Part shown: piece after piece, positions 7,201 through 50,902 of the stretch | How positions within the stretch are numbered: the first letter of the stretch is position 1 | Layout of the letters: each line of letters opens with the position of its first letter | IMG/VR virus record: IMGVR_UViG_3300034418_006779 | Location: 45,079 to 109,078 of that record | DNA from: a virus | Direction: 5' to 3' (one strand) | Length of the DNA: 64,000 nucleotides | Program-made: the position numbers and the translations under genes | The notes under the pieces: generated by a model | The model's database searches: none | What the model saw: only the letters and a program-made list of their open reading frames with translations | What the model was told of the DNA's origin: nothing

Positions 7201-10200
7201 TTACATGGAAGAAGGACTAGATGTTTTCACACAAGAAGAACTTACTGGTTTGATCTCCTATGTTCAAGAGTACTTTGCTGGTACTGAGAAAGCATCTCTA
7301 TTGGATTTGATTGACTACCAGAACAAGATCATTCGCCCTGCTCAAGATGTCGCTAAAGCTGTTGAGACCCGACACGCATATGGTATTGAGTTTATGGATT
7401 CATTATCTTATGAAGCTGCTAAAGAACTTAGCAACTTGGTTAGTGATATGAAGAAAAGGTACAACGAAAACGATGAGGAAATCAAGCCCGATGATGTAGG
7501 TAAACTCGTTATGCTAATGACCAAAGGTCTTAAAACCAGCATAAGTTCTGCCAACATGACTAAGCTTAAGACTTATTTAATAGATGTAATTCATGACAGA
7601 GCAATGTCAGTTGAAGAAATCTATACAGCAACAGAGTCTTATACCATTAGCCCATATGGAGAAGAAGATATTAAAGCAGTGGAGAAAGAGTTTAAGGCAG
7701 AAGAGTCTACCGGGGCAGTCAGCGCCGTAAACCCACCTTCTGACGAACAAGAGGCTGCGGACTTGGCAGAGCTAGATGCTATTAGAGCTATGTTCCCTAA
7801 CTCAGATGATGAATCTGCTAGCCTATATGGATTTACTCCGGCTCAGCAAAAGTTTGTAGACACTCATTATGTTGAAGGAGTTGATGTACTCAATCAAGGA
7901 GCTTTCATTAAGAACATGTTAGCTGAATTGTTTGATAAAGTAATCTATAATCCTAAGGGAGTTAAAGTGAAGTTGGAAGAGTATGTTCCTCAATTAAAGT
8001 ACAATACTGTTAACATGAGGAAAGATCTTCGAAGAAAAGCAGCTGCTATTCATGAGCAGATCAAAAGCAAGTATGATGCGGATACCTACAGTATGCAACA
8101 AGCAGCAAAAGATCCTGATAATGCAGCACAGTTCAGCGAGATTCTTCAGCTTGATGCCAGAGCGAAAAAGCTTGACTTGATGATAGCTGGTTGGGACAAA
8201 ATAGAAGGATTGTTATATGAGAGACTTACTAACACTGCCGGGTTTAAAATGTCAAAGGACAAATCAGCTCGTAAAGAAGTTGACCTAGACACTCCTGCCG
8301 AACATGAGGGAGAGAATGTAAGCTCTGATGAGGAAATGACCGAGTCAGATTTCTCAAAGAAGAAATTTGATTCTCTTGTTGGTGAAGTAGATCCTAAAGC
8401 TAGTGCATCTCCCTTGCTTAAGATGTTCTTGTCCACTATTCCTAGAAGTGAGATTGATCCAGAAACCGGAAAAGCTATTGGAGGATTTAGTTGGTATAAA
8501 GGAACTGAATATGTAGACTTTGATAAGGTGTGGGGATTCTTGAAAGAGACTCTAGCAAACAAGTGGTCTGACCGTAAGGCAATGATTGAGGAGTTAGAAA
8601 ACTATACTACTTCTCATCCGTATGTTCAACACATCATTGACTTGCTACAGCGTGACAAAACTCATGCTGCTACATTACAGCCTAGGATTTTAGCAGAACT
8701 ACAGAACGATCCAGCATATTTTACTAAGTATACAAACGAGCAACTAGAGAAGATGTCTTGGGACCGAGCAAACTATCGGGTCCAGAAACAAATGCAATTA
8801 GCTAGACAGCTTATCGTAGCCGTTCGTTCTACTGCGATCAATATGTACATGGTGATGGCTTACTCCAACTTGACAGGAGGAGACAGCTATAGTAGATATA
8901 AAACTATCCCGGCTAACAGGAATAAGGTGGACAAAAAGGTTAGAGATCAATGGACTATTAACCTAAAACAAACTGCTTTGTACTCTCCTAAGTCAGAGTT
9001 TGATGCTACGTTATATCCTAATACATCTAGAATAGACGCACTGTTTAACAAGTATGATAATCAGTATCGTAAAACTTTAGATCATCTTGTAGGTTTCCTA
9101 TCTGAGATAGGAGTTACTCTATCTGACGAAGTAATAGCTGACATCATTAAATGGGATGGTAACATTCCACTAAGTGGGGGAGAGTGGGTAGAAGCTGGAG
9201 AATTATTGTCAGTATTGCTCAGTGATAAAGGACTTCGTCCTAAAATGGTTAACAATCTACCTCTAGCAGCATCCAACCCTCTTAACGATGGATATATTCA
9301 GAGTCTATCCCGTCTACAAGCTAAGCATGAACAAGGTCTAAGACCTCAGTCAGCAAGGATTAACAATAAATCTATTTATGAGTATACGACTACTCAGTTT
9401 AATGCGGACCATTTAAGAGAGCTACAAGAAGATGGAGATATGATTGCAAACTTCTCAAAGTCTCATTTCTCTGCTAAGTCACTATGGCTTCAAGATTCTT
9501 ATGATCATACAGGAGGAGTAATGATGATCGATGAGGAAACAGGTCAACCTGTATCTACTGGTTTAGGTCTTCATGAAATGGAGTTCTTTACCGTATCGCT
9601 TAATCCATACAAAGAAGATTGGCAAACAAGTTCTGGTAACCCGGTTCCATTACAGGATCGTAATGAGTTACAGCATGAACTTACAAAGATTGCTCACTTC
9701 CAAGAAGGATTTGAAGGCGGTTCCGAGTTTCAAACATATGAAGAAGGAGAACCTGTTAGACGTAGACGCACTAGTCTGTTTTATCCTACTAACTCTAACA
9801 AAGAGAGGGCTACAGGCTTTAGAGGAATCAAGGCTATTGTCAGTTCTTTTTATGGACAAGAGAATCGAATTGTGCTTACAGACGAGACTCTTGATGTCGC
9901 GATGGAACAGTTAGTGGAACCTGAGTTTAACAGAATTGTAAAGATTCAGTCTCTAATTGCTGCAGGGGACACTCCTAGAATTAAAGCATATGCTCACGGA
10001 GGACAGATGTTTCACTTTATTCCATCTCTTAATAATATGGAAGAACTTTGGGATGAATTTGGACAACTGAATACAGAGGCATTAAATGATCCTAAGATTC
10101 AAGAACTAGTTAGAGATCGAGTTAGTAAACATTTAATTAAACTAGGACAGAAGAAATATAAATTCTGGAAAAAGGCTGGTATCGGAGCTACTAAAGAAAT

Positions 10201-13200
10201 CGAAACTAAGAGTGGTAACACTATTAAGAAGCATTTTCAGGGGCTCGACAAGTTCTACATGCACAAGATGTTTGGAGCCAACAAGAACATGACTGATCAA
10301 CAAAGAGAGTTGGCCATTCAGAAAGCAGCTCTTGATATGGAGATCAACTACATGATTGCAAATGCAAACATGTATATGTTATTTATTGGTGACCCAGCTT
10401 TGTATTTTAAACCTAGCATGACTAAGGATCTCATCAAGAAATATCCAGACCCTATTGATTTTATCAGGGCGTATCATTCTGAGGTTAACGATGAGTATAG
10501 AATCAATGTGGTCAAAGATACATTCGATAATGCTGGTAAACGTCTAGCAGGGGATATTGCTCCTGGATATGAGTTAGCAGATACAGCTAACCCAGATTTT
10601 GCAGATGATCTTGAGATTAATTATATGTTCTTAGGCGATGTTAAAATTGCTAGTGTAGAAAAAGAATACTTAAAACGATTAGGATTGGGAGATGCCTATG
10701 ATGGGCTCGAAGGTGCAGATGGTCAGGAGTATACTCACTGGTCAGAGCACTTAAAAATACTATATCATTTGGGTAGACTGACAGATGATGATTATGAGAG
10801 AATTACAGATAAACTAGACAGAGGTGAAGACCTGAATGATTCAGATTTGAAGACTGTTCTTCAGCCAATGAAACCTGTTTATGTTAACAACAGATGGGAT
10901 GAGGGATTAAGTACTTACATCAGAACCTATGTTAAAACGTCTGCATTCCCTCTACTTCCACAGCTGACTCGTGATCTCGAAATAGATAAGCTAACTCAAT
11001 TTTTAGAAGAAAGATACCAAGATCCAGAAGCACTGACAATACATCGCGTTCCTATGATGTCTGGTACTAAGGTTGGTGGATTTAGCGATGCCGTTGAGTT
11101 CATGAATGCAGATGGTACATTTAAGACATCGGAAGAATTGGCAGAGGCCGGAGCCTTTAATCAAGATCTACACGTGATTACTGTACCTCGCCAAGGATTT
11201 AGAATTCAGCAAGATGTTCCTTACAAAGAAGATAAAGATGAGATCAACCGTGTATCGCAGGCTGCTAAACTTTTGGTAGTAAACATGATGGGGCAGAAAG
11301 GATTTGAACCCAAGAGGTTTATTATAGATAATAGAATCTATGACCTCGTTCCTTCTATTAGAGAGTTCTTCATTGATGATGAAGGCAATGAAATAGACCA
11401 TGACTTCTCAGGAGAGGATATGAATAAGATCTATAATGCCATATTCAAATATCTGTATGAGGAAGACATGAGAGGATTCGTAAACGAATTCATGGAAGAG
11501 AATGGAGAAGACCTCGACTGGAATAAAGTAAAGGATGTAATTAGAGACGAGGCAATAGCACGTAACTATCCACCAACAATGGTGGACGCTATTGATATGT
11601 TTGATGATGTAGCATTCTTGAAGTTCTCACCATACGCTCTACAGTTTCAAGCCTTGCTTAACTCTATTGTTAATAACAGAGTGTTGAAGAAAACAATGCC
11701 AGGCCACTCATACGTACTTGGATCAGAGGAAGGATTTAGAATTCAGGAAGGACTTACAGAAGATAATCTTAAGAATACTGAGATTATCTATACTGGTTCA
11801 TTCAATGGTAAATATCTACAACCCGCTAGATACTTGACAGTAGAAAATGCTAATGAAAAAGAAATTGCTGATGCTAGAAAGGAGAACAGAATTCTTAAAG
11901 AGGAGAAAGATGGTGTAGAAGTAGAATACATTGTAACCGAAAAAGGTAAAAAAATTATGAGGGGAGATCAAGTATTTGTAGCTCCTAGATTTAAAATTGA
12001 AGATAAAAACGGGAAAGAGCGTTATATTGATCTTAGAGAAACTTATTCAGATGGTACATATAAGTGGTTGAACAAGGACAAGAACGGAAGGCTTACTCTC
12101 AAGAAGAGTAAATTCTCTAAACAAGCTCTTGAGATGTTTGGAATGCGTATCCCTAACCAGGGTCCTAACTCCACAGCATATATTGAGATTGCAGGGTTCT
12201 TACCTAAGAAGATGGGGGACTTGATTATTGCACCTCGTGACTTCACAGCTCGAATGGGTTCTGACTTTGACGTTGATAAACTGTACTGTTATCAATATTA
12301 CTATTCTGTTAACAAGTCTGGTAAGATTGTGGCTTATAAAGGAAAAAATGATAAGAAGAGATTAAAAAATGCATTGGTGAATGTTCACATGACTATTACT
12401 AGTAACCCGGATGAGAATGTACAGAAAGCTATCAGTACTCCATTGAATGAGTGGAGACTTGGTGAGATTGGTAATACCATATTAGGATTCAGAGAGAAGA
12501 GATTTTCTGAAAGAGATCCTGAGACTGGCGAAGTTATTCCAGCTAATGAATCCTTTAGTGGAATATCCTCTGAGTATCAGAGAACTAAGTATCTCAATGC
12601 TCGTGCTGGTAAGATTGGTGTAGGTGTATTCTCTCAGGATTCAGTATTTAATGCTATGCTGCAGCAGCATAGAGTTACCTTAATGAGACAACAAACTGAC
12701 GATTCTTGGGATGACCATTTCGAAAAGTTTGGGGATCAGGACTCGAAGCTAATGTACACAACGGACACTACTGATGGAACACTAACTAAGATGGAGGTTA
12801 TCTCTGCTTGGCAGTCTGCGGCGGTGGACGATGAAACATTACAGATTCTTTATAAGCTGAATGTTAACTCTACTACTATGCCGGTTGTTAGGTATATGAA
12901 CCAGATTGGTTTTGTTGAGGAGACTCCATGGTTCTTGACTCAAGATGCTATGTTTGACTACTTAGACTTTTTGAACCAAGGTATGAAAAGAGCTGATGCG
13001 GTTAGTGCAGTATTTAAAAAGTACAACATCAAATTTCCTGATGAAGCTGAAAAACTGAAGGAGTTTAAGAACGATTTATATGAAGAAGCTAATGAAATTG
13101 GATTAGATAAACTCAAGCACATGGTTGAGAATGGCCCTGACTCTGATGATTATACTCCAGAAGAGTATGCTAGAATTCAAGGAGCACTGTTCTATAAGTT

Positions 13201-16200
13201 TCTAGACTTCACTAAGAAAGGCGAAGACATTGGAGACTTACAGCGTAGGCTGGGTCGTGATACCAAAACAGTTGGTAAGAACTTGATTGAAACTTTGGAG
13301 ATTCTTAAGCCAGCGGAGAATAAATCTAAGATGTATAAGATGGCTAATGAAGAGAAGTTATTTAATGAGACAATTCCTGGTTGGATTTACATGAATGCTT
13401 TACCATTGGCTCTTAAGTTTGATGATATATTTCAAGTACAGTCACCTCTTATAGAAGAAGTATATTCGTTCTTAGATGACGCTGTACGCTGGACACTACC
13501 CAATGATACTCGTGAGAAAATCTACAAACATATGATTTCTTACTTTTTCTCACTACCTAAATTTGGTATGTTTGATGGAGACGTTGTGTCAGCTAGAGAA
13601 AGACTATTTTTTGACAGCAGGGTAACAAATGGAATGCTGTGGGATAGAATGATCGAGCAACAACTGCAAGGATTGAGAGATAAAATCTCTTCTCGATTTG
13701 TAGTAGGAGAGACTACTGATAATCAAGCTATTGAGTATGTAGCTGCCTCAGATACTTACATTATCTCATCGGCTCTTGATCTAAACGCTGTTACATCTAT
13801 GATGGATAGAGCAGCTATATTTGATGAGAAATCTACTAAGAACAGCTTTATCATTAAGCATTGGAACAAACCTACTAAGAAAGAGCGAAACAAAGCAGTT
13901 AATACAGACGGGAAGAAAGGACGGTTAGAGTCTACTTTTAATAGTGACCCTACTCAACTTCAGAAGTTTGTAGTAGCAGCAAAAATATATTCTTTGGCTA
14001 ATCAATCAGAGAAAATTGAAGCAGCTCATTTTAAGTACGCGTTGAATAACTTCATTAAACTAGCGCAAGCTAGAGATGTGAATCCTGTGAATAATATGTC
14101 ATTGGCATCTATTTTCTCAAATATTATGTCACATGATTATGTTAGGAACAATCCTTTCTTGATTGGTATGACCGCAGACATTAATGAACAAGGAATTAGT
14201 AAGCTAACTTTCAATGCTACCGAAGGAACGTTAATGAACGAGCGAGTTTATAGTGAGGCTTTTCTAAATCTATTTAATGACGTACGCCAACCTGTGTTAG
14301 GAGTATTCAACGGAATACGATATACGCCCAAGTTATTAGGACAGGAATTAATTAAGTATGCTATGCTCTCCGGTGCTAAACAGGAAGCGATTGAATTTAC
14401 TAAATATATTCCGCCAAGTATTCTATACAATCTCCCTCTTGCTTCTCCAGATGGTAGAACAATAGGTGACGAGGTTAGTAACGCTTCACTTAGAGATCTA
14501 GACATGTTCCAGAACTTTAAGTACCAGTTCCTACAGCACATGTCAGAGCATCTGATCAAGGTTAGTTCTTACTCAATGGATCTTGACAACTACGTTAAGA
14601 AAGGTAAGAAGTTTAACCATAAAGAAGACCTACTTCCTGCTGTTATTGATAAGTCCAGAATTAACTTCAAGGATAACAATATCAAAACAGAAGAGGGTGA
14701 GTTCTTCATTCCACATGCTTTTGTTACTGAAGAGGTAGCTACTAAAAAGATGGTAGTATATGTCAGTAACAGAAATAACAAGTACCATAAGGTAGATAGT
14801 CTTGGAGTATTCGGTATGAGAGAGTATGATCCTAGTAAGCAGTTTGCTGCGTCAACAGTGAACCATGCGGCTAATACTACTACTCATGTAAACTTTGCTG
14901 ATAACTATAGTGATGATCTTGTTAAGTGGGAGAAAGCTCAAGTACTCAAACCTATGGAAGTAGAGGAGTTTGAGAGACTCATAGATGCAAACTTAATGAG
15001 TGAGACAGCTACTCCTAGTATGGCCGAAGTTATTACTGCAACTAAGAAGTATACTAAGTTTGACTTTGAAAAGAGTATGCTTGAAACCTACGCTCAGATG
15101 GCAATTCTAACTGGTGTAGAGTTTAGTGTTAATCAACCTGTTGAAGGAACTTCAAGATATGATAATGAAACATATTATGATCCAGCATCTAACAGAGTTA
15201 ACATCAACAAAGACACTCTAGATAAAGTAACTGAGATCTTAGGCTCGAAAGGAGAAGCGTTTAAGTACTTGCTGATGCACGAGCTGGGTCACGCCTTTAC
15301 TAAAATGTTTATTCATAAACATCCTTCACATCGCTTGACCATTCAGATCAAACAACTACAACAAGAGTTTGTTAGAAACTTGGATAAAGAATCTGATGCA
15401 TGGAAAGAATTGGTAGAAGAAAATGCTTACATTGAAAATACTCTTACTGACATTCATGAGTTCATAGCTTACGCTATGAGCGATAACAAGTTCCAGAAAG
15501 TACTTGCCGGGATGAAGAGAAAGAACGAATCAATGTTGAACAAGTTCTTCCGTTTGATCAAAGGGATCATAGGAGATTTGGCTAGAATGTTGGGAGTTAA
15601 AATCAATGACACTCTCTTGGAAATCACATTAACTAATGTAATGCAGATGCAATCTCTGTACGCAGCTTCCGTTTCGGATGTAGATCCGGATACTGGAGTC
15701 TCAGCTTTTGAACAACTTACAGAGGGATCTAATGCAGGAATAGTAATTTATGAGATGGATGGAAAGATGTATGAGTTCACTCTTGATGGAGTAGGCGTTC
15801 CGATTAGTTATCGTAGAGGAACTGATCTAACTAACCTACAAAGTCCTCGTTCGTACACAGGAGATAGATTAGTAGCAAAAACTAAGGAGCTCTATTATGA
15901 TGCTCTCAAAGATGGAGCTATGATTCTAGGTAAGACTACTGAGTCTACTCAAATGAGTTCAGAAATAAGCAAGAGACCTAGCATTGAAGAGACCATTGCT
16001 GCGATGGATAGAGCAGGTAGGATCGAAAGAGATAGCGAAGGAAATTTGACAGATGTTAAAGCACTTAACGGTAAGTCATCTAAACTTTTCCATTCTCTTA
16101 CTGAGATTGTTCCTGACGCTGAGCAAGCTCTTAGAGAGTATGCTAATGTAACAGCGTATAAGGGTGATTGGGATCAACTAGAACTAGACTCCAATGGGGA

Positions 16201-19200
16201 ACCTGATTTGGTTGAACTAAATGACATGGACGATGTTTCGTTCTTTGCTGCTTCTTCTAAAGGGAATAAAGGCGGTGCGGTTACGTATCAGTTCTTTATT
16301 GATAGTTTTAATCGTAGAAAAATTAAGCTTGAGCGTGAGATGAATGTACTCTCTAAGGAGAGAGATCACCATGCCACAGCAATTGATAGAAAAGCATTCA
16401 TTGAACTTCGAGTTCGTCAGATTCAACAGGCAATTAATATTCTTAATGGACGGATAGAGCTCTTAAGACCTTTGACTAAGATTAGGAGTTTGAAAACCGA
16501 ATTGAATAAGGATGTTACTATACTGGAGAATTTAATTGGAGCTAATAAAAATCCAACTCTTCACGATTTAGAATTAGCTAGAGAGATTATTGAGTTTTGG
16601 AAAGTAGTAGGTAACTACTCAGGAGAAGAACATCCGTTCTTTGATGAGTCAGAGTTGATATCTATTAGAGAGCAGAAGCCCCCTAAAGGAAAGCGAATGA
16701 ACGCCATGCAACAAGAGCGCACGAAGCAGACTTTAGATAGAGCTATAAGTAATATGCAGACTTACCAAGGTATTCTACTTAGCAGATACAAAGACATTAT
16801 TGATGATAGGAATAAGAAAACTTATGGAGCAGATCATGATATTAATTGGAATGACTTTATTAAAGATGTATCTGGAGTTGAAGCTCAGTTCTTAGATATT
16901 TCTCAAACAGATAATGAAGTACTTCATCTATTGGGTGAGGCTGTTAAGGATGCTAACTGGAGAGCTAAAGTAGAATCGAATAAGATTGTAGCAGAAGTTG
17001 ATGAAATGTTAGACAAACTGAGAGACTGGGCGAGCACAAGAGATGTAAGTTTGAATGAGGCTTTCGAAAGTTTGGCACAAACATTCTCTAATGACCATGA
17101 TGAAAGAACCGGTAACTTGGTTGAGTTCGCTACATACGAATGGAGAAAAGAATTGCTACGTAAGAGACGATGGGCACAGCGACAAGGTACAATTGACGCA
17201 AGAAGTGCGGCAGAGTTCTCACGCTTTGGTACCACAGGATTTGAAACAGAAAACGTACAGATATTCGACGACTCTCGTTATAGGGTGGAACAAGCCTATA
17301 GAGATAAAATGAATGATTTGTTTGGTGAGGAGGTTGCTCAAGATTTGTCTAACCAGGCTCGGGCATTAAGAGGTGAGTTTAGACGAGCTAAAGATGGATT
17401 TATCAGATTCTTAGATGGATTAACTCTTACTACTGAGCAACGGGATCTTAGAATGAAGATGTGGGAATTTGAAAACGATCCAGAAGTTCATAGGAATATT
17501 TTAAAACACGGATACGTTAATACAATTAAAGCAAACCAAATTGCTAAGATTAAAACAGGGAAGAAGTTTAAGTTGAGAAACGAAAAGAACTTCTTACCTA
17601 TAGTAAGTGGTAAGTTTGTACTGACTGTTCCTAAATCTGCAGATCATGTAGATAAAAACTTCAAACGTTTATATAAACCTGAGAATAAACCTCTCTTGGA
17701 TATGTATAAGTACGCAATAGATAAGATTAATGAAATAAATGATTATCTTCCTGCGTATAAAACTAGGAATCTTCAAGAGAATACTCTCCCTTACATGTTA
17801 CAGACTCATATCAATGAGTTCTGGCACGATCGTAAAAACCATGGTATGATCCATGCGAGTAAGGCTATCTGGGATCGCTTCCTTGTAGAAACAAGGCAAA
17901 GTAATTTTGATGAGGAATCATTTAGAATGAAAGATCCAAACGGCCAGCTGTCTGATGAGATTCAGGTTAGGTATATTAGAGGTAGAAAGAAGATTGATGA
18001 CCATATTGACTTCAAAGTTACCGAATGGTTAGTTAACCAAGGAGATAGGAAGAAAGATGATGCTTATAAGAAAGACTTACAAGAGGTAAGAGCTGCTGCT
18101 GAAAGAGAGATCATAAATAAGTTGTCTGAAAAGCAAAGCTTTGACTTAGGACAAGTACTTAAAGCGTATGCTATTTTTGGTCTTAACTACAAGCACAAGG
18201 CTGCTACTGAGGATCTTGTACGAGCTGTAGGGTATGTTGTTGACAAATCCGATGAGGCTCCTACACTAGATGGAAGTGCCGCACCTGCTGGTGGGCGTAT
18301 GAGAAATATTAAGACTATGGTAGATTCATACAAAGATTCTTTCTTTAACTATCGTCCTATAGACAAAAACTTTGTTAGTAAAAAGAAAGAAGTTCTCACT
18401 CAAGATGAGAAAAAAGAACGTGAAGAGATTAAAGGGTTGATAGACACATTGAAAGATGACATTGTTCAGATGGGTGCAGACATGAAGAACGATAAGCTTA
18501 CTAAGAAAGAGAAGCGTGCATTGAAAAATAAGATTGACGACTATGAAGATAGAATCAGCCGTCTTGAAGATCAGTATGCTAGAATTGGTGGAAAATTTAA
18601 GAGCGCATCTTATATTGATTTGTTACTTAGATACACTCGACTCAAAGGTATGGCGTGGAACGTCCCTGCGGCGTTTAGCAACATTGCTTTTGGACTTGTA
18701 GCAGGCATGAATCAAGCAGCTGATGGACGAGTCTACGGCGACAACGAATACTTCACAGCGCTTTCGATTGCACTCAATGGGGTAGGTAGAAACTGGAGCT
18801 TTGGTAAAAAGACAATATTGCATAAAGCAGATGTTAGCGAGAAGATTAGAAACGCAATGGACCATCTTGATATCTTAAAAGAGACTAAGTATGAGATCTT
18901 TAGTAAGAGTAAAGAAGGTACCAGAAAGTGGGATGATAAGATCAAATTCTTAGACCCATACAATCCTCAAGCTCGTTCGGAGTACTTCGTACAGTCTATT
19001 GATTTAATAGCTACAGCTTTAGCAACTAAAGTTACGCTTGCTGATGGAACCGAAACTAATCTATGGCATGCGATGGACAACAATCTGAATGTACCAGTTG
19101 GAGCAACCATCACTACTGATGCGGCTAGAGATAATATTACTGTTACTGAAGATAATCAATTAGATGCTCAGTTTTATCTTAAACAAAGAGCAGATAAAGT

Positions 19201-20059
19201 GATTAGAGAAAACCATGGTAACTATGATCCTGATTATACTATCAAAGCTAAAAGATCAGTATTGGGTAGGATGGTATCTATCTTTAATACGTGGTTGTTC
19301 GAAGCTGTACAGCAACGCTTCGGTAGAGTTAGAGATGACAAACAATTTGGATTCAAAAGGAAGGGTAGATACCATAGTGGTGTTGCAATGCCTTTCTTAC
19401 CAGTAATGTTTGGATGGTCTAATGAAACTGGAATGGGGGCTATACAACAGAGCTTATTTGCTACTAAATACCTCTGGAACCAACTTGGTAAATCTCTTAG
19501 TCTAGGTAAACTAGACATCAACAAGCAGATTACCGGGCAGGAACTTTCCTTTGAGGAAGCAGGATTTAGTGAAGTAGACGCGGCAAATATGAGACGTAAC
19601 ATTCGTGATGCGCAATTCCAACTTCTGTTGATAGCTATGTTCTATTGCTTCAAAGCAATGGCTACTGGAGACAAAGAAGAACGAGAGGAAGAGGGAATTC
19701 CTTCTCATGAGAAAGGATTTGGCAGTGAGTGGATGAATAATTACATGGCTAACATGTCATTAAGAATCTATAATGAATTGACGCTGTATAACAACCCAGT
19801 TCAAATCTTCTCATCGCCTCAGAATTTTGCAACGCTTGGTCGAACCTTAGCAGACTTCGGTCACTTGATTGACGCTACTTTCGCACAGTTTGGTGAAAAA
19901 CCTAACTATGAACAAGGAGCATTCAAAGGTGTGAATAAACTGTGGGTAAGATCTACAGGCATGATCCCAGGATCTACACCATTCACTTCAGCAATCAAGT
20001 CTGGACATCAGATATACGGAACACCAATATCATCTACATTGGGAACTCGTATGAGATAA
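1292..20059 (+). CDS. Giant 6255-residue virion protein with RNA polymerase, PD-(D/E)XK and zincin-like modules
   Basis: This single uninterrupted frame fills 29 percent of the window. Around residues 3615-3666 it has R-x-P...I-x-x-F-x-P...DFDVD, which matches the double-psi beta-barrel of RNA polymerase beta-prime and YonO/crAss-like virion RNA polymerases; the metal-binding aspartates are D3658, D3660 and D3662. Residues about 890-1090 resemble a RecB-type PD-(D/E)XK nuclease: D979, then D993-L-K995, and a Q-L-S-L-Y motif at 1025-1029. Residues about 1174-1222 look like a winged helix, 655-760 is a lysine-rich coiled coil, and H4663-E-L-G-H4667 is an HExxH zincin motif. In crAss-like phages such RNA polymerases are packaged and injected; by analogy this protein transcribes early genes. 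The start has an A-rich leader and follows the upstream stop by 7 bases. The domain assignments other than the polymerase motif are inference. Confidence 0.92.
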   Translation: MAETTQNTNPVFDKILQQNRAQALHGASASKGLGTTLVDGPIYTGYDDPRMSLLTQSGWEQARRAIGGGLTLGALGAMKNTYQFAHDIGNFFETMFSSDKSMSDLLDMEQYSQSTIAKNLGEIIDEKREAFAIHKADPNDVFDWDDSGFYWQSVQGILDSAVQFALPGAGAVKAVGAIQKIPRLFSYFKKTEKLGQMLTASKSGQQIANSVGSGLLSNHIEGTSMASEIYNNTMKNFEKDIQKYRDSEGREGISLEEAKRRSAFSANSFREWNRLMFFTDAVQLHGLFKGKGFTRNLLDAKGFKESVGNLTKFNTKNPIYGFLKQGVTEAGEEIVQGISQRLHEDMAKGVDTPIGERLLDYVTDSELLYEGFLGFFGGGPQKIATQFAQEGDAVLTGKFFTKKYWNDKNAMYNQQQEIIKETNDYFKSELGRQMVGHNIAADAVIAGRPELGEIATNREFSRLATMHFEAGTTEVFEQHLDDIANNAEYRKENKYSDDDAANAKELLKELDRLEQQWMKTSRYAVDDKHQVRLFETNNIINSLEKLVGSQQEHIDKLTQNLNETIIDDAVEAANLKISNEKKDALRKILSIDEQGKLRAPVDELAEADLHPAHAKAVAEVFDTQSQVTDLKDQQAILDEMNSKLRDAKKDRANYNSFGYRKSYIEHKKRQEKRLKDKIKREEAAERKQRRADKKLKRAETSKKLKGKAKQLAKKGELKKEAKKIMDKAATKAKLAPENKKSEPLQTVDPATKQPVTPTQPTPNEYIGKERGTLLAERSKKEAVLSSSKPEEIMPVLDVLAEIGDALEELRAQPFQHSGKYEFAPPAHIKDALDEMINRSKRIILNEDTNEYELKDENGKVVRTYKRVSNVSNPDYDDSNKYAHHATQIGSALDLIARDFFSGNLKAWDTYLVADKFDKTKSYPVFKGKKEFEHYLHQLEDLKLVLKSKGQVIIDPGIVDGKTSEFKLADDENGVAGTVDLMTYDKEGNVYIYDLKSMRSNKLEGNDYYSRTHGRKKSDAETHQDQLSLYRILLANSTGLLAAELAVIPTVVGGYNPDGEVKVPSTVNILTKRFGPDVTSMVDFFVFMDPKDSVSGIELSPLRTFITTPPSTPIQVPPSTPQASEEEAEARADLAAVVGLTNKIDAELRKIDQDQEFHADAEEDLLEGLTKKEKEMLSKIRKKHSSFWVGSREELAKLVGTKQKKVDEFIEKLEQKGFLEFNDETVVLTLSDLPARFAARNGFSAIIEAAEDNFNGVIARIRKRLEKGEDYQVEFADLINFIQHQLEAVNSAISERQYDMYEMLYLHYVFVNKSRDFQKPQIPSYEEWLKQSIVPGADVKIDDQYDENTIDEVKNMSDFIKRFFELPDKKLGEQGTKAAVDKVAYLAREYFNEALTSEGFSAQEISDSLNEGKVHPDVFNRKKLLPGTKLKIKVNHNYTGVTKYHPELMGDLPTQETPQGRVVQWSDFIAKYPQGTLEYNMFVPLEIRTEDDRLIGWYHTVGFATKHTIKIKDGQTSDEAVEEAREAVIDARDIILNNLNSQGEFDAGGQLQIEETSIGQLLRPENKNRVRASEGIEEDLDIVVGRMTGQKASLRTGPSDKERVQQNRVHRMKGFKVIRGLTYLMFPVGTKEIKVGKKKTKRTVTTFAPVPLYKHKMGTTKANEEDQYSDIRSSIAKVIELFIDTSNENNMPLIREFEKQTGYNLRKWEHVKKYLEQFLYDRTIPAEYTEIIDFIKDSNLDDSKMVFALKFREDSNDKRAQLVLGSKLSADGSQFINLRRGDQFTEQHRALIEKHLKAMFFNTSLAAVKNNKPVFIIKKGKVEQIAKTYKEFVKSTSDVPFIGMKYTDENGETQHTYTAQRLLLMNSDSIMDYTAPETSATEAKQETVEQQRAKHELTYKPNRLKQKIDKYQFERIAKRLKELRSSDATLALYNQLVDVYRGIHDQIIIAKSHNVDVGNFISGDLETMVDPYMEEGLDVFTQEELTGLISYVQEYFAGTEKASLLDLIDYQNKIIRPAQDVAKAVETRHAYGIEFMDSLSYEAAKELSNLVSDMKKRYNENDEEIKPDDVGKLVMLMTKGLKTSISSANMTKLKTYLIDVIHDRAMSVEEIYTATESYTISPYGEEDIKAVEKEFKAEESTGAVSAVNPPSDEQEAADLAELDAIRAMFPNSDDESASLYGFTPAQQKFVDTHYVEGVDVLNQGAFIKNMLAELFDKVIYNPKGVKVKLEEYVPQLKYNTVNMRKDLRRKAAAIHEQIKSKYDADTYSMQQAAKDPDNAAQFSEILQLDARAKKLDLMIAGWDKIEGLLYERLTNTAGFKMSKDKSARKEVDLDTPAEHEGENVSSDEEMTESDFSKKKFDSLVGEVDPKASASPLLKMFLSTIPRSEIDPETGKAIGGFSWYKGTEYVDFDKVWGFLKETLANKWSDRKAMIEELENYTTSHPYVQHIIDLLQRDKTHAATLQPRILAELQNDPAYFTKYTNEQLEKMSWDRANYRVQKQMQLARQLIVAVRSTAINMYMVMAYSNLTGGDSYSRYKTIPANRNKVDKKVRDQWTINLKQTALYSPKSEFDATLYPNTSRIDALFNKYDNQYRKTLDHLVGFLSEIGVTLSDEVIADIIKWDGNIPLSGGEWVEAGELLSVLLSDKGLRPKMVNNLPLAASNPLNDGYIQSLSRLQAKHEQGLRPQSARINNKSIYEYTTTQFNADHLRELQEDGDMIANFSKSHFSAKSLWLQDSYDHTGGVMMIDEETGQPVSTGLGLHEMEFFTVSLNPYKEDWQTSSGNPVPLQDRNELQHELTKIAHFQEGFEGGSEFQTYEEGEPVRRRRTSLFYPTNSNKERATGFRGIKAIVSSFYGQENRIVLTDETLDVAMEQLVEPEFNRIVKIQSLIAAGDTPRIKAYAHGGQMFHFIPSLNNMEELWDEFGQLNTEALNDPKIQELVRDRVSKHLIKLGQKKYKFWKKAGIGATKEIETKSGNTIKKHFQGLDKFYMHKMFGANKNMTDQQRELAIQKAALDMEINYMIANANMYMLFIGDPALYFKPSMTKDLIKKYPDPIDFIRAYHSEVNDEYRINVVKDTFDNAGKRLAGDIAPGYELADTANPDFADDLEINYMFLGDVKIASVEKEYLKRLGLGDAYDGLEGADGQEYTHWSEHLKILYHLGRLTDDDYERITDKLDRGEDLNDSDLKTVLQPMKPVYVNNRWDEGLSTYIRTYVKTSAFPLLPQLTRDLEIDKLTQFLEERYQDPEALTIHRVPMMSGTKVGGFSDAVEFMNADGTFKTSEELAEAGAFNQDLHVITVPRQGFRIQQDVPYKEDKDEINRVSQAAKLLVVNMMGQKGFEPKRFIIDNRIYDLVPSIREFFIDDEGNEIDHDFSGEDMNKIYNAIFKYLYEEDMRGFVNEFMEENGEDLDWNKVKDVIRDEAIARNYPPTMVDAIDMFDDVAFLKFSPYALQFQALLNSIVNNRVLKKTMPGHSYVLGSEEGFRIQEGLTEDNLKNTEIIYTGSFNGKYLQPARYLTVENANEKEIADARKENRILKEEKDGVEVEYIVTEKGKKIMRGDQVFVAPRFKIEDKNGKERYIDLRETYSDGTYKWLNKDKNGRLTLKKSKFSKQALEMFGMRIPNQGPNSTAYIEIAGFLPKKMGDLIIAPRDFTARMGSDFDVDKLYCYQYYYSVNKSGKIVAYKGKNDKKRLKNALVNVHMTITSNPDENVQKAISTPLNEWRLGEIGNTILGFREKRFSERDPETGEVIPANESFSGISSEYQRTKYLNARAGKIGVGVFSQDSVFNAMLQQHRVTLMRQQTDDSWDDHFEKFGDQDSKLMYTTDTTDGTLTKMEVISAWQSAAVDDETLQILYKLNVNSTTMPVVRYMNQIGFVEETPWFLTQDAMFDYLDFLNQGMKRADAVSAVFKKYNIKFPDEAEKLKEFKNDLYEEANEIGLDKLKHMVENGPDSDDYTPEEYARIQGALFYKFLDFTKKGEDIGDLQRRLGRDTKTVGKNLIETLEILKPAENKSKMYKMANEEKLFNETIPGWIYMNALPLALKFDDIFQVQSPLIEEVYSFLDDAVRWTLPNDTREKIYKHMISYFFSLPKFGMFDGDVVSARERLFFDSRVTNGMLWDRMIEQQLQGLRDKISSRFVVGETTDNQAIEYVAASDTYIISSALDLNAVTSMMDRAAIFDEKSTKNSFIIKHWNKPTKKERNKAVNTDGKKGRLESTFNSDPTQLQKFVVAAKIYSLANQSEKIEAAHFKYALNNFIKLAQARDVNPVNNMSLASIFSNIMSHDYVRNNPFLIGMTADINEQGISKLTFNATEGTLMNERVYSEAFLNLFNDVRQPVLGVFNGIRYTPKLLGQELIKYAMLSGAKQEAIEFTKYIPPSILYNLPLASPDGRTIGDEVSNASLRDLDMFQNFKYQFLQHMSEHLIKVSSYSMDLDNYVKKGKKFNHKEDLLPAVIDKSRINFKDNNIKTEEGEFFIPHAFVTEEVATKKMVVYVSNRNNKYHKVDSLGVFGMREYDPSKQFAASTVNHAANTTTHVNFADNYSDDLVKWEKAQVLKPMEVEEFERLIDANLMSETATPSMAEVITATKKYTKFDFEKSMLETYAQMAILTGVEFSVNQPVEGTSRYDNETYYDPASNRVNINKDTLDKVTEILGSKGEAFKYLLMHELGHAFTKMFIHKHPSHRLTIQIKQLQQEFVRNLDKESDAWKELVEENAYIENTLTDIHEFIAYAMSDNKFQKVLAGMKRKNESMLNKFFRLIKGIIGDLARMLGVKINDTLLEITLTNVMQMQSLYAASVSDVDPDTGVSAFEQLTEGSNAGIVIYEMDGKMYEFTLDGVGVPISYRRGTDLTNLQSPRSYTGDRLVAKTKELYYDALKDGAMILGKTTESTQMSSEISKRPSIEETIAAMDRAGRIERDSEGNLTDVKALNGKSSKLFHSLTEIVPDAEQALREYANVTAYKGDWDQLELDSNGEPDLVELNDMDDVSFFAASSKGNKGGAVTYQFFIDSFNRRKIKLEREMNVLSKERDHHATAIDRKAFIELRVRQIQQAINILNGRIELLRPLTKIRSLKTELNKDVTILENLIGANKNPTLHDLELAREIIEFWKVVGNYSGEEHPFFDESELISIREQKPPKGKRMNAMQQERTKQTLDRAISNMQTYQGILLSRYKDIIDDRNKKTYGADHDINWNDFIKDVSGVEAQFLDISQTDNEVLHLLGEAVKDANWRAKVESNKIVAEVDEMLDKLRDWASTRDVSLNEAFESLAQTFSNDHDERTGNLVEFATYEWRKELLRKRRWAQRQGTIDARSAAEFSRFGTTGFETENVQIFDDSRYRVEQAYRDKMNDLFGEEVAQDLSNQARALRGEFRRAKDGFIRFLDGLTLTTEQRDLRMKMWEFENDPEVHRNILKHGYVNTIKANQIAKIKTGKKFKLRNEKNFLPIVSGKFVLTVPKSADHVDKNFKRLYKPENKPLLDMYKYAIDKINEINDYLPAYKTRNLQENTLPYMLQTHINEFWHDRKNHGMIHASKAIWDRFLVETRQSNFDEESFRMKDPNGQLSDEIQVRYIRGRKKIDDHIDFKVTEWLVNQGDRKKDDAYKKDLQEVRAAAEREIINKLSEKQSFDLGQVLKAYAIFGLNYKHKAATEDLVRAVGYVVDKSDEAPTLDGSAAPAGGRMRNIKTMVDSYKDSFFNYRPIDKNFVSKKKEVLTQDEKKEREEIKGLIDTLKDDIVQMGADMKNDKLTKKEKRALKNKIDDYEDRISRLEDQYARIGGKFKSASYIDLLLRYTRLKGMAWNVPAAFSNIAFGLVAGMNQAADGRVYGDNEYFTALSIALNGVGRNWSFGKKTILHKADVSEKIRNAMDHLDILKETKYEIFSKSKEGTRKWDDKIKFLDPYNPQARSEYFVQSIDLIATALATKVTLADGTETNLWHAMDNNLNVPVGATITTDAARDNITVTEDNQLDAQFYLKQRADKVIRENHGNYDPDYTIKAKRSVLGRMVSIFNTWLFEAVQQRFGRVRDDKQFGFKRKGRYHSGVAMPFLPVMFGWSNETGMGAIQQSLFATKYLWNQLGKSLSLGKLDINKQITGQELSFEEAGFSEVDAANMRRNIRDAQFQLLLIAMFYCFKAMATGDKEEREEEGIPSHEKGFGSEWMNNYMANMSLRIYNELTLYNNPVQIFSSPQNFATLGRTLADFGHLIDATFAQFGEKPNYEQGAFKGVNKLWVRSTGMIPGSTPFTSAIKSGHQIYGTPISSTLGTRMR

Positions 20060-20475: not shown

Positions 20476-20492
20476 ATGTAAAAATATTTTAG

Positions 20493-20567
20493 GTGCGGGG
20501 GCCTGACTCGAACAGACGGTCTCTGGGTCTGAGACCCAGCGAGATACACCAACTTCTCTACCCCGCA
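20493..20567 (-). tRNA. tRNA with non-standard anticodon loop (anticodon position reads UCA)
   Basis: A full cloverleaf folds: acceptor TGCGGGG/CCCCGCA (7 pairs), TA at 8-9, D-stem GAGA/TCTC, anticodon stem CTGGG/CCCAG, five-base variable loop, and T-arm GTCTG-TTCGAGT-CAGGC. The 7-base anticodon loop is TCTCAGA, so positions 34-36 by standard numbering are UCA, which would read UGA; position 33 is C rather than the near-universal U. A shifted reading would give CAG (Leu). It ends 18 bases before the start codon at 20475. Confidence 0.75.
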
Positions 20568-34443: not shown

Positions 34444-34887
34444 TCACTTTTTAGCCGAGCTATTTGTTCGGCCTGTACCAGATCCATCGACACTGTCGTT
34501 AGGTCGATTAGACGATCCGTCAGGTCTTTTGGGGTTATCTGGGTCATGAATTAAAAATTGTAAATGTCTTCCTTGTAATGAGGGCCCATAGCACTCACAT
34601 TTGATTCGCAAACTTACAACCTCACCGTTCGTTCCCTCCATCTCCACAAGCGCAACACACATGGGGTTGGGAGTATCCGGCTTAGCATTCGGATCCAGGG
34701 GCGTTACATTCTTGACAACCCATTTGTTATCAATAGAAATGTCCAAAGTCTTGGCCCCTAAGATAGGACCTTGTTGCCTGCCTTGAACCGTCTGGTTTTG
34801 GGCAGAACTCATCGGGCTTCCCCAGTCATCGCAAGAACCGAAGAAAAAGAAGCTCAAGATGAGTGCTATCGTTAATGCTCTCTTCAT
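34444..34887 (-). CDS. Predicted lipoprotein, 147 residues
   Basis: The N-terminus MKRALTIALILSFFFFGSC is a lipoprotein signal peptide, with a G-S-C lipobox at the end of the hydrophobic stretch. The mature part is polar, with a Pro/Asn/Ser-rich C-terminus. Phage lipoproteins often block superinfection or help lysis; which applies cannot be seen. The start overlaps the DNA polymerase stop by one base (TAATG), so its translation is coupled to polymerase expression. Confidence 0.8.
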   Translation of the reverse strand: MKRALTIALILSFFFFGSCDDWGSPMSSAQNQTVQGRQQGPILGAKTLDISIDNKWVVKNVTPLDPNAKPDTPNPMCVALVEMEGTNGEVVSLRIKCECYGPSLQGRHLQFLIHDPDNPKRPDGSSNRPNDSVDGSGTGRTNSSAKK

Positions 34888-35625
34888 TAGAATAAATCGT
34901 TAAAAGATTCAACGGACTGAATAAGTTTGTTAGCCTCTTTAATGTAGTAATCATAATTGATCTCTACGTCTTCTAACTTCTCATCAGTAATAAGATTGAA
35001 ATCCGATAAAAGATTTCCTACATAGACTCCTATCTTACGTCCATCGGTGAACCGCTTATACATCGGCACTCCTGATTTCGATACGATTAGCCTATTGATC
35101 CGCTGCAGAGGGGAATCCTCACCATCTAATTCGTGGCAAAGCATGGACGTTTTTTTACACCTAACGAATACGAAGAAGTCTTCGACTTTATCGTGGTTCC
35201 GTATAGTGACTTCGACCGGCGTGCCATTCTGCACATACTCTTGTACGGCAATGGGCACAACGCGTTTGCTGTGGTCTTTATTTATCCATTTATTAACCTC
35301 GAACGCACCCTTTTGTTTAAGCTTTCCAGACGTCGTGATCGCACAGTAATTATTTACGTTTGCTACAAACATCTTTCTATATGTTTCATACTCAAGGGTA
35401 AGGTTGGTGAGAGACTCCCACTCCTCGCAGATCTTGATGATGGCGTCGTAATCGACTTTCGAGATTATACACTCGAGACCATCAGTGTTGGCCATGATGA
35501 CCTGGGCTCCTGCTTTTGTAAGCTTTTCAGCTAACATGGCTAAGAGCAACTGCCCATTAATGGTAATGGACATTGTAAATTGGCGGTCATATAGGAATGA
35601 CCATTTGTCGTTGGATTTACCGTAA
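34887..35625 (-). CDS. Family B DNA polymerase, exon 3 (palm, motif C, thumb)
   Basis: This exon encodes polymerase residues 377-621 after splicing. It starts with the end of motif B (Y377-G378-K379) and includes motif C as ANTDGL (T423-D424), in place of the usual Y-x-DTD. The last 180 residues form the thumb. The exon boundary at 35625 is set by three things: the frame joins exon 2 as GT|T TAC GGT (V-Y-G), the intron ends in G, and the exon 2 end pairs with a guide sequence. A shorter reading frame starting at M394 would lack motifs A and B. Confidence 0.9.
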
Positions 35626-36716
35626 CAGCATAATCACATATTTCTATGTGGGCTGGACTATATCATCATCCCATAGGGATGGAGGACGCTCTAGCTGGTT
35701 ATTAAGAACACTATAGTTCTCCAGTAGTCTCTGCACGTTCCTGAAGTGTACCTCAGGCTTCGCTCAGGATTGCCATACCTTTCGGCTTAGGTTTCCCTGA
35801 ATTCATCCTCTGCTAACTCAACTATTACTAGCTGAGAGGGCTTACTGAAAATAGTAATCCTTTGTAAGGTTTTCCAGTTTTAGTTGCTTTATTCACATTA
35901 GGCGCACGTAAAATATGAGCAGGTAATCCGTTTCTCCCGTTAGGGTTTCGAAGAATCATGTGATCAATTAATTCAAACGATTTTTTCAAGGATTGTCGCT
36001 CAAGCTCTGCCGCAGAAGTATACTTACCAAGTAGAGTTTTAGATTGGTTATACACATAAACATCAGGCACTCTAGCTGAGAATGCTTTTTGTCTTTGTTT
36101 ACGTCCTTTCTGACTAATCTTTCTTGTTTTCGCTGCCGCAGAAAGCTTTTTATTATGCGCTTTCGACATTTTCTTTCCTGTATTCCATACGGGTTTCAAC
36201 CACTTAGAAACCTGCTTTTGGTATTTTTCGGGAACGTCTTTTAATCTAAGTTTAGACGCCTTCACTTGTTTAAAGTATTTTCGAGCTTTCTTGTTGAATT
36301 CTCGAAGACTTTTACCTCTATCTTGTAATTGCTTAGAGGTTAAATGAATAGAATCTGTCGCTAATGGATTAATATTAAATAACATATTCCAATCTCTAGA
36401 ATCAATATACTTTTGCTCGATAGCAAGACATTGATTCTTTGGAACACGTTGTAAAATACTAAATTCAAAGGCTTCATAACCATATTTATCAAAAGCATTC
36501 TGAAGATGCTTATTCTTATGAGTTTTATTCTCTAACGATAAAAAATGATGATAGATCCTTTTTGCAAAACTAACTCTGGTAGACCCTATGTAGGATTTAC
36601 CATTCTCTTTGCACTTTATCTCATATATTCCTGTATTCATAATAATCATAATTTAATATAATATACTATAAACCACAGTTAAATACAATAAAGATTGCTG
36701 ATTTGTGCAAAATCAA
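35626..36716 (-). ncRNA. Group I intron 2 in DNA polymerase motif B
   Basis: The 1091-base intervening sequence lies between codons restoring K-x3-N-S-x-Y-G. The conserved core is at its 3' end: TCAGGGAAACCTAAG, then GGAACGTGCAGAGACTA (P7 5' strand) and GATATAGTCC (P7 3' strand). The guide GTTGAGTT (35815-35822) pairs with the exon end AACTCGGT, ending in the required U-G pair, and the exon 3 start can pair with GTAA just upstream (P10). The homing endonuclease gene sits in the P1 loop, between the splice site and the guide. Confidence 0.82.
35828..36640 (-). CDS. GIY-YIG homing endonuclease in intron 2
   Basis: The 270-residue protein has G4-I5-Y6 and Y17-I18-G19, an Arg in AKRIYHH and a Glu in AIEQKY, the core of GIY-YIG nucleases. 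The C-terminal half is basic, with repeated modules typical of NUMOD DNA-binding segments (KGRKQRQKAFSARVPDVYVY). It would cut intron-less alleles and spread intron 2. The ATG at 36640 (MNTGIYE) is preferred over the upstream in-frame ATG at 36649. The gene ends 6 bases before the intron guide sequence. Confidence 0.9.
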   Translation of the reverse strand: MNTGIYEIKCKENGKSYIGSTRVSFAKRIYHHFLSLENKTHKNKHLQNAFDKYGYEAFEFSILQRVPKNQCLAIEQKYIDSRDWNMLFNINPLATDSIHLTSKQLQDRGKSLREFNKKARKYFKQVKASKLRLKDVPEKYQKQVSKWLKPVWNTGKKMSKAHNKKLSAAAKTRKISQKGRKQRQKAFSARVPDVYVYNQSKTLLGKYTSAAELERQSLKKSFELIDHMILRNPNGRNGLPAHILRAPNVNKATKTGKPYKGLLFSVSPLS

Positions 36717-36875
36717 ACCGAGTTTAACGCAAGCTTGTACGCCCCGTTTCTCGGATCACTTTTGGGAATAGACTTCCGTAGCTTATACAAGTCCTCGTAT
36801 ACATCACAGAACTTCTCTGAGAGATGCTCGGGAAATAAACGATTTTTGATTGCTAGGTTCGGGTAGTATGAACTT
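36717..36875 (-). CDS. Family B DNA polymerase, exon 2 (motif A end to motif B)
   Basis: This exon of 159 bases codes polymerase residues 324-375 plus two split codons. It starts with A-AGT-TCA-TAC-TAC (motif A, D-V-S-S-Y-Y-P) and ends with K370-L-A-L-N374-S375-GT (motif B). It is too short to be seen as a gene by itself and carries no usable start codon. Both boundaries keep frame: exons of 968, 159 and 739 bases give 622 codons including the stop. Confidence 0.88.
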
Positions 36876-37805
36876 CATACCTGTTAATCTTCAGTTTCCT
36901 GAAGTGTCGGACTATATCTTTAGTTCTTTCTTCCAAATAAATTGCCTATAATGAGGTTTATACCCATTGCAAGCATTATATATGCTGGAAGCAGTAAAAG
37001 TTGGATTTTTTTCTAGAATATCCTTCATAGAAGGATAAGTATTTAACAAAGTACCTGATGAATCATATTGATGAAAAATGTATTTCTCTTTACTTTTTGA
37101 AAGTTTTCTCTTCATTACTTCTTTTTTTTCTGGGTTGTCTTCCCAGAATTTCTTGAAGAATTTAGATACTTTTTCTCTTTCTTTTGGGTCAGAAAAACGA
37201 CGTTTGCCACTTTCAGATAGAAGGTCTCTAGTTTCTTGAGCAGGCATTAATCCTCCTTCAGAATCTAGTCTAAGATTATAACCATGCTTTCTGTCTAAAG
37301 AATTAAAACACTTCATCCAATATAGTTCTCTTTTAGAGAGATCATCATATTCTGCGTATTCAATAACGAAATATTCAAAATTAGACTCTCCATGCTTATG
37401 CCAAGAATTGATTAGATAACGATTCTCATCCTTAGATTTCCTATTTAAAGATGATTTATGAGCTTGTATTCTTCTATAGACATCTACAGATTTACCAATA
37501 TATACTTTATTAGTTATTTTATTTCTGATACAGTAAATACCAGATTTTTCCTTGTGTTGTAATTGAGCTTTCATACCTTAATATAAGGTATTATTCTCAT
37601 AGTTACAACTTATTACCCAACTAATTGAACTACCGGACGCTTTTTCACACAAGCATTACCATGTGCTACTTCCTGTTATTAAGCCATATCGCTATAGCTC
37701 AGGTAGTCTCTGAACGTTCCCGCTCTGCGGGCTTCGCTGCTGATTGCCTTATTTTATAACTTAGGTTTCCAGCAATTCATCCGGTTAGGACGCAAGTTCG
37801 TTTTT
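36876..37805 (-). ncRNA. Group I intron 1 in DNA polymerase motif A
   Basis: This 930-base intron splits the codon for V323 directly after the catalytic D322. The guide GAACUUGCGUCC, a few bases into the intron, pairs with both exons: GGACGU at the 5' end (with the U-G pair at the splice site) and AAGUUC at the start of exon 2 (P10). The core follows at once: AATTGCTGGAAACCTAAG, AACGTTCAGAGACTA (P7), then the endonuclease gene, then GATATAGTCC (P7 3' strand) and a CTTCAG-GAAA-CTGAAG hairpin (P9). The last intron base is G. Confidence 0.9.
36912..37574 (-). CDS. GIY-YIG homing endonuclease in intron 1
   Basis: The 220-residue protein has G12-I13-Y14 and Y25-I26-G27, then YRRIQAH with the conserved Arg, and an E in KRELYWMKCF. 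The C-terminal part is basic with a repeated helix pattern, likely the DNA-recognition domain. It lies within the P8 region of intron 1, and its TAG stop falls inside the 3' strand of intron core helix P7. It probably cleaves intron-less polymerase genes at motif A and differs clearly in sequence from the intron 2 enzyme. Confidence 0.9.
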   Translation of the reverse strand: MKAQLQHKEKSGIYCIRNKITNKVYIGKSVDVYRRIQAHKSSLNRKSKDENRYLINSWHKHGESNFEYFVIEYAEYDDLSKRELYWMKCFNSLDRKHGYNLRLDSEGGLMPAQETRDLLSESGKRRFSDPKEREKVSKFFKKFWEDNPEKKEVMKRKLSKSKEKYIFHQYDSSGTLLNTYPSMKDILEKNPTFTASSIYNACNGYKPHYRQFIWKKELKI

Positions 37806-38773
37806 ACGTCCACACTTAGGATCATCTGGTGATCTTCTGGTTCATGAGTTCCAGCCACAACAGCGTGTAATCCGCCGAGGGCAAAAGTATAAACCATACC
37901 GCCAAATGCTTGGTCGATAGAGACTTTATCTTTCGGCCCTAACAACATCTCTCGATATTGATCAAGGACTCCCTGAAACTCTGGCGCATCGAATTCTACG
38001 TAATCCAGAATTATATCATTCACGATGATTTGATCTCGCTCCGTTTTCCACTGACGTAGAACAGAAGGAGGGAGATTTAATGCTTTCGACATGTAGTCGA
38101 GGAAAATCCGTTCCCCGATTGAGGAATTTGACGCATTGAGGAAGTTATAATGGTATTCCTCCATTAGTACCTCACGCAACTCAATCATAGCTTGTGTATC
38201 TTCCTGTACCTCAGGCTTTTTAAACCAGAGGAATTTTTTTGTAGCGTTGACATCATTCCAACAGTACTCAATTAAGTCGTTGGCCTCCTGCTCAGAAACA
38301 AATTGACCGGGGTCAATCGGAAGCTCCTGAATATTGTGGAAGCCAATCGCAGCCTCAACGGCTTTGAGTGACATCGATCTAGCTCTGTTGTTAAAATGCC
38401 ATAATCTCCATAGGTCCAAGGAATAGAATACGCGATCAGCATCGGAAACCTTCCTAACTTCATTATTAATAATTCGGTCAGATAGTTCCTTCAACGTCGA
38501 GCAAAATTCTTTTGGAGAACTACCCATAAGATCTAACGCCTTGTGGAGAATAATATCATCGTAACCGACGCTATTAAAGCCCACAAAGAAATTGTCTTCA
38601 GCTAAAAATTTCAGCAGTTCAAGAATTTCGTCAATAGGTTCATTTTCATCAAAAGGATCGTACCAAACAGTAAACTGCCGGGTGTCCTCTAACGACTCCT
38701 CTGCCCTAACAAAGTTAGCACAGAAGAAATTATGATATACTTCTATATCATAAACCCACTGAGTTAGGTCCAT
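37806..38773 (-). CDS. Family B DNA polymerase, exon 1 (3'-5' exonuclease to motif A)
   Basis: Encodes residues 1-322 plus two bases of codon 323. The proofreading exonuclease motifs are intact: Exo I D9-I-E11, Exo II F-N67-x4-D72, and Exo III Y170-x3-D174. The exon ends with ILSVDV, the beginning of motif A with catalytic D322. An unspliced message would add 17 residues encoded by the intron and stop. The gene replicates the phage genome with the nearby helicase and primase. The upstream winged-helix gene overlaps its start by 10 bases. Confidence 0.92.
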
Positions 38774-50783: not shown

Positions 50784-50902
50784 AGCACGTGGTAGGATTC
50801 GAACCTACATCGTTCCCAACTAGGAAACTGAGAGACTATCAGCACCTAGCAACCTTACAGTCAGTTGAAGGGCGCTCTGGTTTCCGATTGAGCTACACGT
50901 GC
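50784..50902 (-). other. Oversized tRNA-like element, about 119 bases
   Basis: Acceptor GCACGTG/CACGTGC (7 perfect pairs), TA, D-arm GCTC...GAGC and T-arm GTAGG-TTCGAAT-CCTAC are all present on the minus strand. About 42 extra bases lie between the D-arm and T-arm, including a CTAGG...CCTAG hairpin. A tyrosine-like CTGTAAG loop is visible, but its stem is imperfect. A tRNA with a very long variable arm, an inserted segment, or a decayed gene are all possible. Confidence 0.5.

Follow-up and report, generated by a model that had tools for sequence, protein, structure and literature searches.

A group I intron with a putative GIY-YIG homing endonuclease gene in motif A of a phage family-B DNA polymerase, a probable recurrent intron target

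Group I introns are known from DNA polymerase genes of several phage groups. In family-B DNA polymerases (PolB) of tailed phages they have been reported for the delta group of crAss-like phages (Yutin et al., 2021; PMC7886860), the passages of that paper compared here giving no insertion positions. Family-A polymerase introns have been described in SPO1, SP82, Bastille, Pf-WMP3, phiL7 and phiI/W31 (PMC3428280); like the locus described here, they carry endonucleases, interrupt a conserved polymerase region and reuse the same site in very divergent phages. However, these IA2-type introns occupy other sites in a polymerase of a different family and their endonucleases are of the HNH type. The combination of a phage group I intron and a GIY-YIG homing endonuclease is familiar from the T4 td intron with I-TevI, which resides in a thymidylate synthase gene instead, and the preference of such elements for conserved sequences is usually explained by the targeting of critical codons (PMC2988022). 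The closest described relatives of the present intron are found in Cellulophaga and Flavobacterium phages. The PolB intron of Cellulophaga phage phi14:2 (Crassvirales, NC_021806, annotated as a join) shares its phase-2 insertion position, core family and guide logic, but it is 427 nt long, lacks an endonuclease gene, has other exon and guide sequences and is the sole intron in its gene. In Flavobacterium phages FpV21, Fpv1, Fpv20 and relatives, the same position holds an insertion with the same 3' end structure and a GIY-YIG gene in the P8 loop that is about 47% identical at the protein level; their exons and guide differ, and these loci are annotated merely as two polymerase ORFs around a hypothetical protein or homing endonuclease. 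Because PolB introns of crAss-like phages, the phi14:2 join and the family-A cases have already been described, the intron reported here belongs to a known sort, and the general picture of group I introns is left unchanged. In a narrow literature search, we found no earlier report of a PolB intron in motif A, nor a description of the motif-A position shared across these phages or of two introns that interrupt motifs A and B within a single gene.

The locus lies in a stretch of 64,000 nucleotides from a viral record of 109,078 bases (IMG/VR IMGVR_UViG_3300034418_006779), the stretch being referred to here as the window; the phage is linked to crAss-like phages through its polymerase and intron alone. 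Three PolB pieces on the minus strand are set apart by two insertions, introns A and B (Table 1). Joining the exons, whose sizes had been predicted correctly in a sequence-only reading of this DNA, yields 1,866 nt with no internal stop. The 621-aa product carries the exonuclease motif YDIE, motif A DVSSYYP, motif B KLALNSVYG (followed by KSN) and motif C NTDG. With DIE, DxxSxYP, KxxxNSxYG and a DTD-like motif all present, the host gene is a family-B DNA polymerase. Since a Pfam search of the separate, unspliced polymerase ORFs gave no match, PHROGs was applied to the spliced product, residues 4-616 of which match phrog_1252 'DNA polymerase' (E = 7.2e-150); this full-length match is obtained from the spliced product only. 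The spliced polymerase matched 957 phage records in tblastn, aligns with phage polymerases that are unbroken at motifs A and B, and is weakly similar to archaeal PolB structures. The annotation of an essential gene is corrected by this result, from three fragments to a single polymerase.

Table 1. Features of the interrupted polymerase gene (window coordinates).
Feature	Position	Strand	Remarks
PolB exon 1	37806..38773	-	968 nt; 3'-5' exonuclease domain to motif-A Asp; last bases GGACGT
Group I intron A, in motif A	36876..37805	-	930 nt; last base G
Guide of intron A: P10 strand GAACTT, then internal guide GCGTCC (P1)	37788..37799	-	pairs with exon 2 and exon 1
Catalytic core of intron A: P3-P6, P7 5' strand, P3 3' strand	37632..37786	-	Rfam RF00028, 59.9 bits
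Predicted GIY-YIG homing endonuclease gene of intron A	36912..37574	-	220 aa, P8 loop; Pfam, PHROG
P7 3' strand GATATAGTCC of intron A	36909..36918	-	sequence motif and covariation alignment
P9 hairpin CTTCAG-GAAA-CTGAAG of intron A	36889..36904	-	covaries among homologs
PolB exon 2	36717..36875	-	159 nt, 53 codons, motif A to motif B; first bases AAGTTC
Group I intron B, in motif B (NS-GT|T-YGKSN)	35626..36716	-	1091 nt; Rfam
Predicted GIY-YIG homing endonuclease gene of intron B	35828..36649	-	273 aa, P1 loop
Internal guide of intron B, GTTGAGTT	35815..35822	-	pairs with exon 2 end AACTCGGT
Catalytic core of intron B	35634..35865	-	Rfam RF00028, 92 bits
PolB exon 3	34887..35625	-	739 nt; from motif B YGKSN, with motif C NTDG

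Intron A lies inside the valine codon next after the motif-A catalytic aspartate. The split reads GTG GAC GT | A AGT TCA TAC TAC CCG, the joined motif reads ...SVDVSSYYP..., and the intron begins with AAAAACGAACTTGCGTCC and ends in ...GGTATG. The sequence-only reading had given 36717-37805 as the intron, an interval that includes exon 2; the remainder is the intron itself. That reading was right that exon 1 ends in GT after the aspartate codon, an exact split of motif A, that the intron ends in G and that the restored D-V-S-S-Y-Y-P is polymerase motif A, which intronless relatives carry unbroken. It had also recognized the pairing of one guide with both exons: the 12-nt GAACTT-GCGTCC (GAACUUGCGUCC in the transcript) is complementary to GGACGT|AAGTTC, forming a P1 of GGACGU with GCGUCC, with the U-G pair at the splice site, and a P10 of 6 bp that abuts P1. 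The 12-nt guide matches the joined exons at one site across both strands of the window, and a 6+6 match arose by chance in none of 20,000 composition-matched random 40-mers and in one of 2,000 shuffled introns. Intron position 166 holds another GCGTCC, which was considered as a second guide and ruled out, being the 3' strand of P3.

The core motifs GCTGGAAACC, AACGTTCAGAGACTA and GATATAGTCC, which had been noticed after the guide, are all present in intron A. A covariance-model search, proposed at the same time as a check, detects the core with Rfam Intron_gpI (59.9 bits against a gathering score of 50; E = 1.1e-12; model positions 48-158). This match is partial, without the 3' P7/P9 part, because the endonuclease ORF interrupts the intron there. 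The 5' part of the intron together with its exon flank folds more stably than shuffled sequences (z = -2.9), and a stretch rich in hairpins between P7 and P3, where P7.1 and P7.2 of an IA2 intron would sit, is seen in the fold alone. With a P1 that has U-G at the splice site, a core with the P3/P7 pseudoknot, and a terminal G with P10, intron A is a group I intron.

The gene inside intron A had been left out of the earlier description, which, apart from the interval, was otherwise correct in the intron, its guide and its site. Its 220-aa product matches the Pfam GIY-YIG family (PF01541, E = 2e-9) and phrog_314, a PHROG of homing endonucleases (E = 2e-27), and from its catalytic domain it is predicted to be a GIY-YIG homing endonuclease. 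The ORF is unbroken and retains GIY...YIG as well as the Arg, Glu and Asn positions; R35, E83 and N100 are conserved in the alignment with FpV21 (positions judged by eye). Identity to proteins from the same site is 47-49% (FpV21 and contig L063) and 42% (L046). The ORF stops at a TAG that falls within the P7 3' strand, and the ...KI* ending is common to this endonuclease and its homologs. The gene has a GC content of 30%, versus 42% in exon 1.

The same phase-2 position in motif A is occupied in FpV21, phi14:2 and four metagenomic phage contigs (L046, L050, L063, L073), and three more (L048, L052, L076) match at motif A on the exon 2 side, L048 and L076 being near-identical there. In all cases in which both exons are present, the intron follows the second base of the codon after the catalytic Asp and its last base is G. 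In FpV21, the endonuclease gene between two 'DNA polymerase' ORFs is similar to the 3' half of intron A. A pattern made from the 3' end of the intron (core) was matched by 33 viral contigs and by none of the bacterial and archaeal genome contigs searched. PolB is interrupted at motif A in seven of the 33 (L046, L048, L050, L052, L063, L073, L076), and the other members include phi14:2 itself, near-copies of the window, L033 and introns in other genes. Pattern matches in other genes (L047, L057, L059, L064) were left out of the motif-A set. The L047 match is in a family-A-like polymerase; L057, L059, L064 and others have introns with the same 3' end in another phage gene (exon 2 ...PLGFKAPLAYSS or similar), and the introns of L057 and L064 have LAGLIDADG-like ORFs (by eye). 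Rfam at its gathering threshold misses the introns of phi14:2, FpV21, L033, L046, L063, L073 and L112, in which the core, the guides and the splice sites are nevertheless plain to see; a missing Rfam match was therefore not read as the absence of an intron.

Across seven motif-A introns, the guides vary together with the exons. GAACTT-GCGTCC in the window faces GGACGT|AAGTTC, whereas the FpV21 guide TAGCA-GCATCT faces AGATGT|TGCTG (exon 2 continues with G, TGCTGG). In phi14:2, AGTG-GAGTAGAC faces GTCGACTT|CGCT, with one mismatch in P1 and an exon junction of the type GACTT|CGC. Contigs L063 and L073 share the P1 guide of the window and differ in P10, with TGGTA-GCGTCC for GGACGT|TACCA and TGGCA-GCGTCC for GGACGT|TGCCA, respectively. 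P10 adjoins P1 in all seven introns and comprises 3-6 bp. When guides and exons were cross-tabulated, those of the window and FpV21 paired on both helices with their own exons only, and guides common to near relatives were interchangeable. The core also covaries. In an alignment of eight intron cores with the ORFs excised, in which P3, P4, P5, P6, P7 and P9 were counted, 90% of the cells are paired and 13 of the 30 pairs show two-sided changes (in P3, P4, P5 and P9). None of 500 shuffles reached this level, and the signal was lost when the structure was slid along the alignment. Rfam, the homologs at the same position and the covariation of guides and exons all bear out the group I intron at the boundaries first suggested.

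Phage polymerases that are split by endonuclease insertions are known, such as Aeromonas phage 25 gp43A/B (PMC2988022), and in contig L032 a GIY-YIG gene divides PolB where no intron is recognized. The polymerase of the window might likewise be truly split, its fragments translated separately and the insert consisting only of a stand-alone endonuclease gene and the decayed relics of a ribozyme. This reading is rejected as extremely improbable: the ribozyme core, P1, P10 and terminal G are intact and covary, the exons join exactly in frame, and exon 2, which spans motifs A to B, has no obvious start.

Taken together, these comparisons suggest, with a probability of roughly 0.94, that intron A is a group I intron capable of self-splicing and homing, located at a target in motif A that has been invaded repeatedly. 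From the comparison with its relatives we infer how it would splice, cut and move. In the transcript, the guide would hold exon 1 in P1 through its U-G at the splice site, and a guanosine bound at P7 would cut the 5' site; the P10 part of the same guide would then align exon 2, the terminal G marking the 3' cut, and ligation would restore D-V-S-S-Y-Y-P. The related intron B would be removed likewise. During co-infection, the 220-aa endonuclease would cut intronless polymerase alleles near the motif-A site, and recombination repair would copy intron A in.

Several signs point to horizontal spread. The core of intron A is 84% identical to that of the phi14:2 intron over 123 nt, whereas the two polymerases share about 26-32% identity per aligned segment, and the endonuclease gene is poorer in GC than exon 1. 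A patchy distribution at one site, which is empty in most of the polymerase relatives surveyed, together with cores more alike than their host genes, is what homing would be expected to leave. Homing elements pass through a cycle of gain, decay and loss. The states found at the motif-A site, namely an intact endonuclease, a 41-aa remnant (L050), no endonuclease (phi14:2) and an unrelated ORF (L073), fit such a cycle. These same decay states would also be expected if intron A spliced but had ceased to move, its endonuclease or target having decayed, and were now inherited vertically. All contigs near-identical to the window have intron A, and no intronless sister was found among them: the intronless relatives are distant, at roughly 26-42% identity per aligned segment. 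Set against this are the intact ORF with its key residues, its similarity to same-site homologs, and the resemblance of the core to that of phi14:2 despite very different polymerases, so that loss of mobility seems unlikely, though by no means far-fetched. Codon usage around the site is suggestive of exon co-conversion at motif A: three intron-bearing relatives with phi14:2-type polymerases have GTC-GAC-TTC and an AGY serine, while in the intronless comparison of that type the serine is TCN in 9 of 11, mostly after GAT-TTT. These sequences are too few for a claim.

The reading frame of exon 1 runs about 17 codons into intron A and stops in the P5 region (ORF end 37754), so ribosomes could disturb folding, and the frame of exon 2 reaches TGA immediately in intron B. 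From this it might be supposed that the intron is a regulatory switch on replication, with splicing set by translation or the state of infection, rather than a neutral mobile element. Early in-frame stops are common in phage introns and need no regulatory role (PMC3984707), and most relatives have no intron at all; we consider a switch highly unlikely and retain the homing intron as the preferred reading.

Intron B splits motif B as AAC TCG GT|T TAC GGT. Its Rfam match covers the entire RF00028 model (E = 2.7e-22), and its guide lies downstream of the endonuclease ORF, which places this ORF in the P1 loop. In the relative L112, this motif-B position is likewise occupied by an intron, which has an 8-bp P1 (GCCGAATT with AATTCGGT) and an endonuclease that is 35% identical and again encoded upstream of the guide.

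Insertions also occur elsewhere in PolB of the relatives. L112 has an extra one directly before motif A (7860-8985) with an ORF that, judged by eye, resembles a LAGLIDADG endonuclease, and insertions after motif C (DV-N|NY) are found in L033 (5723-6695), L100, L103 and L104. The one in L033 is an intron at GTGACGT|TAAC, and its GIY-YIG gene is related to that of intron A. The free-standing GIY-YIG gene of L032 (6507-9333), which divides PolB into ORFs of 582 and 147 aa, is a few codons from this intron site, an arrangement reminiscent of collaborative homing (reviewed in PMC2988022 and PMC3984707). Introns in motif A and those after motif C have endonucleases of one family, a common 3' end of the core and an exon end GACGT, and for this reason ectopic invasion from one site to another may be considered. 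A tentative extension, which we regard as possible rather than probable, is that the catalytic codons of this PolB family form a shared multi-site target settled by four or more lineages of introns or insertions (in motifs A and B themselves, just ahead of motif A, and after motif C), the introns at different sites arising from one another by such invasion. If true, the stacked introns would serve as a natural experiment on the coexistence of several mobile introns in a single essential gene, or on their regulation of it. For motif A itself, the case that one catalytic codon of a phage PolB is a recurrent intron target, in divergent phages and with guides that track the exons, is well supported. 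The intact, endonuclease-less, remnant and empty loci, with the free-standing endonuclease, provide useful comparative material on the life cycle of homing introns.

Some minor observations were made in passing. In L041 (uncultured crAss-like phage cr55_1), a hatchet ribozyme and a RAGATH-22 RNA (Rfam; 256-355 and 3044-3244) are situated near a group I intron. In the window, a 119-nt Rfam tRNA match at 50784-50902 (minus strand) has no ARAGORN call and is possibly interrupted or degenerate. A tRNA at 20492-20567 (minus strand) has a TCA anticodon (SeC by ARAGORN) and might be an opal suppressor, yet TGA ends 12 of the 46 listed ORFs. A single ORF of 6255 aa (1292-20059, plus strand), with no Pfam match, runs on the strand opposite to nearly all other genes.
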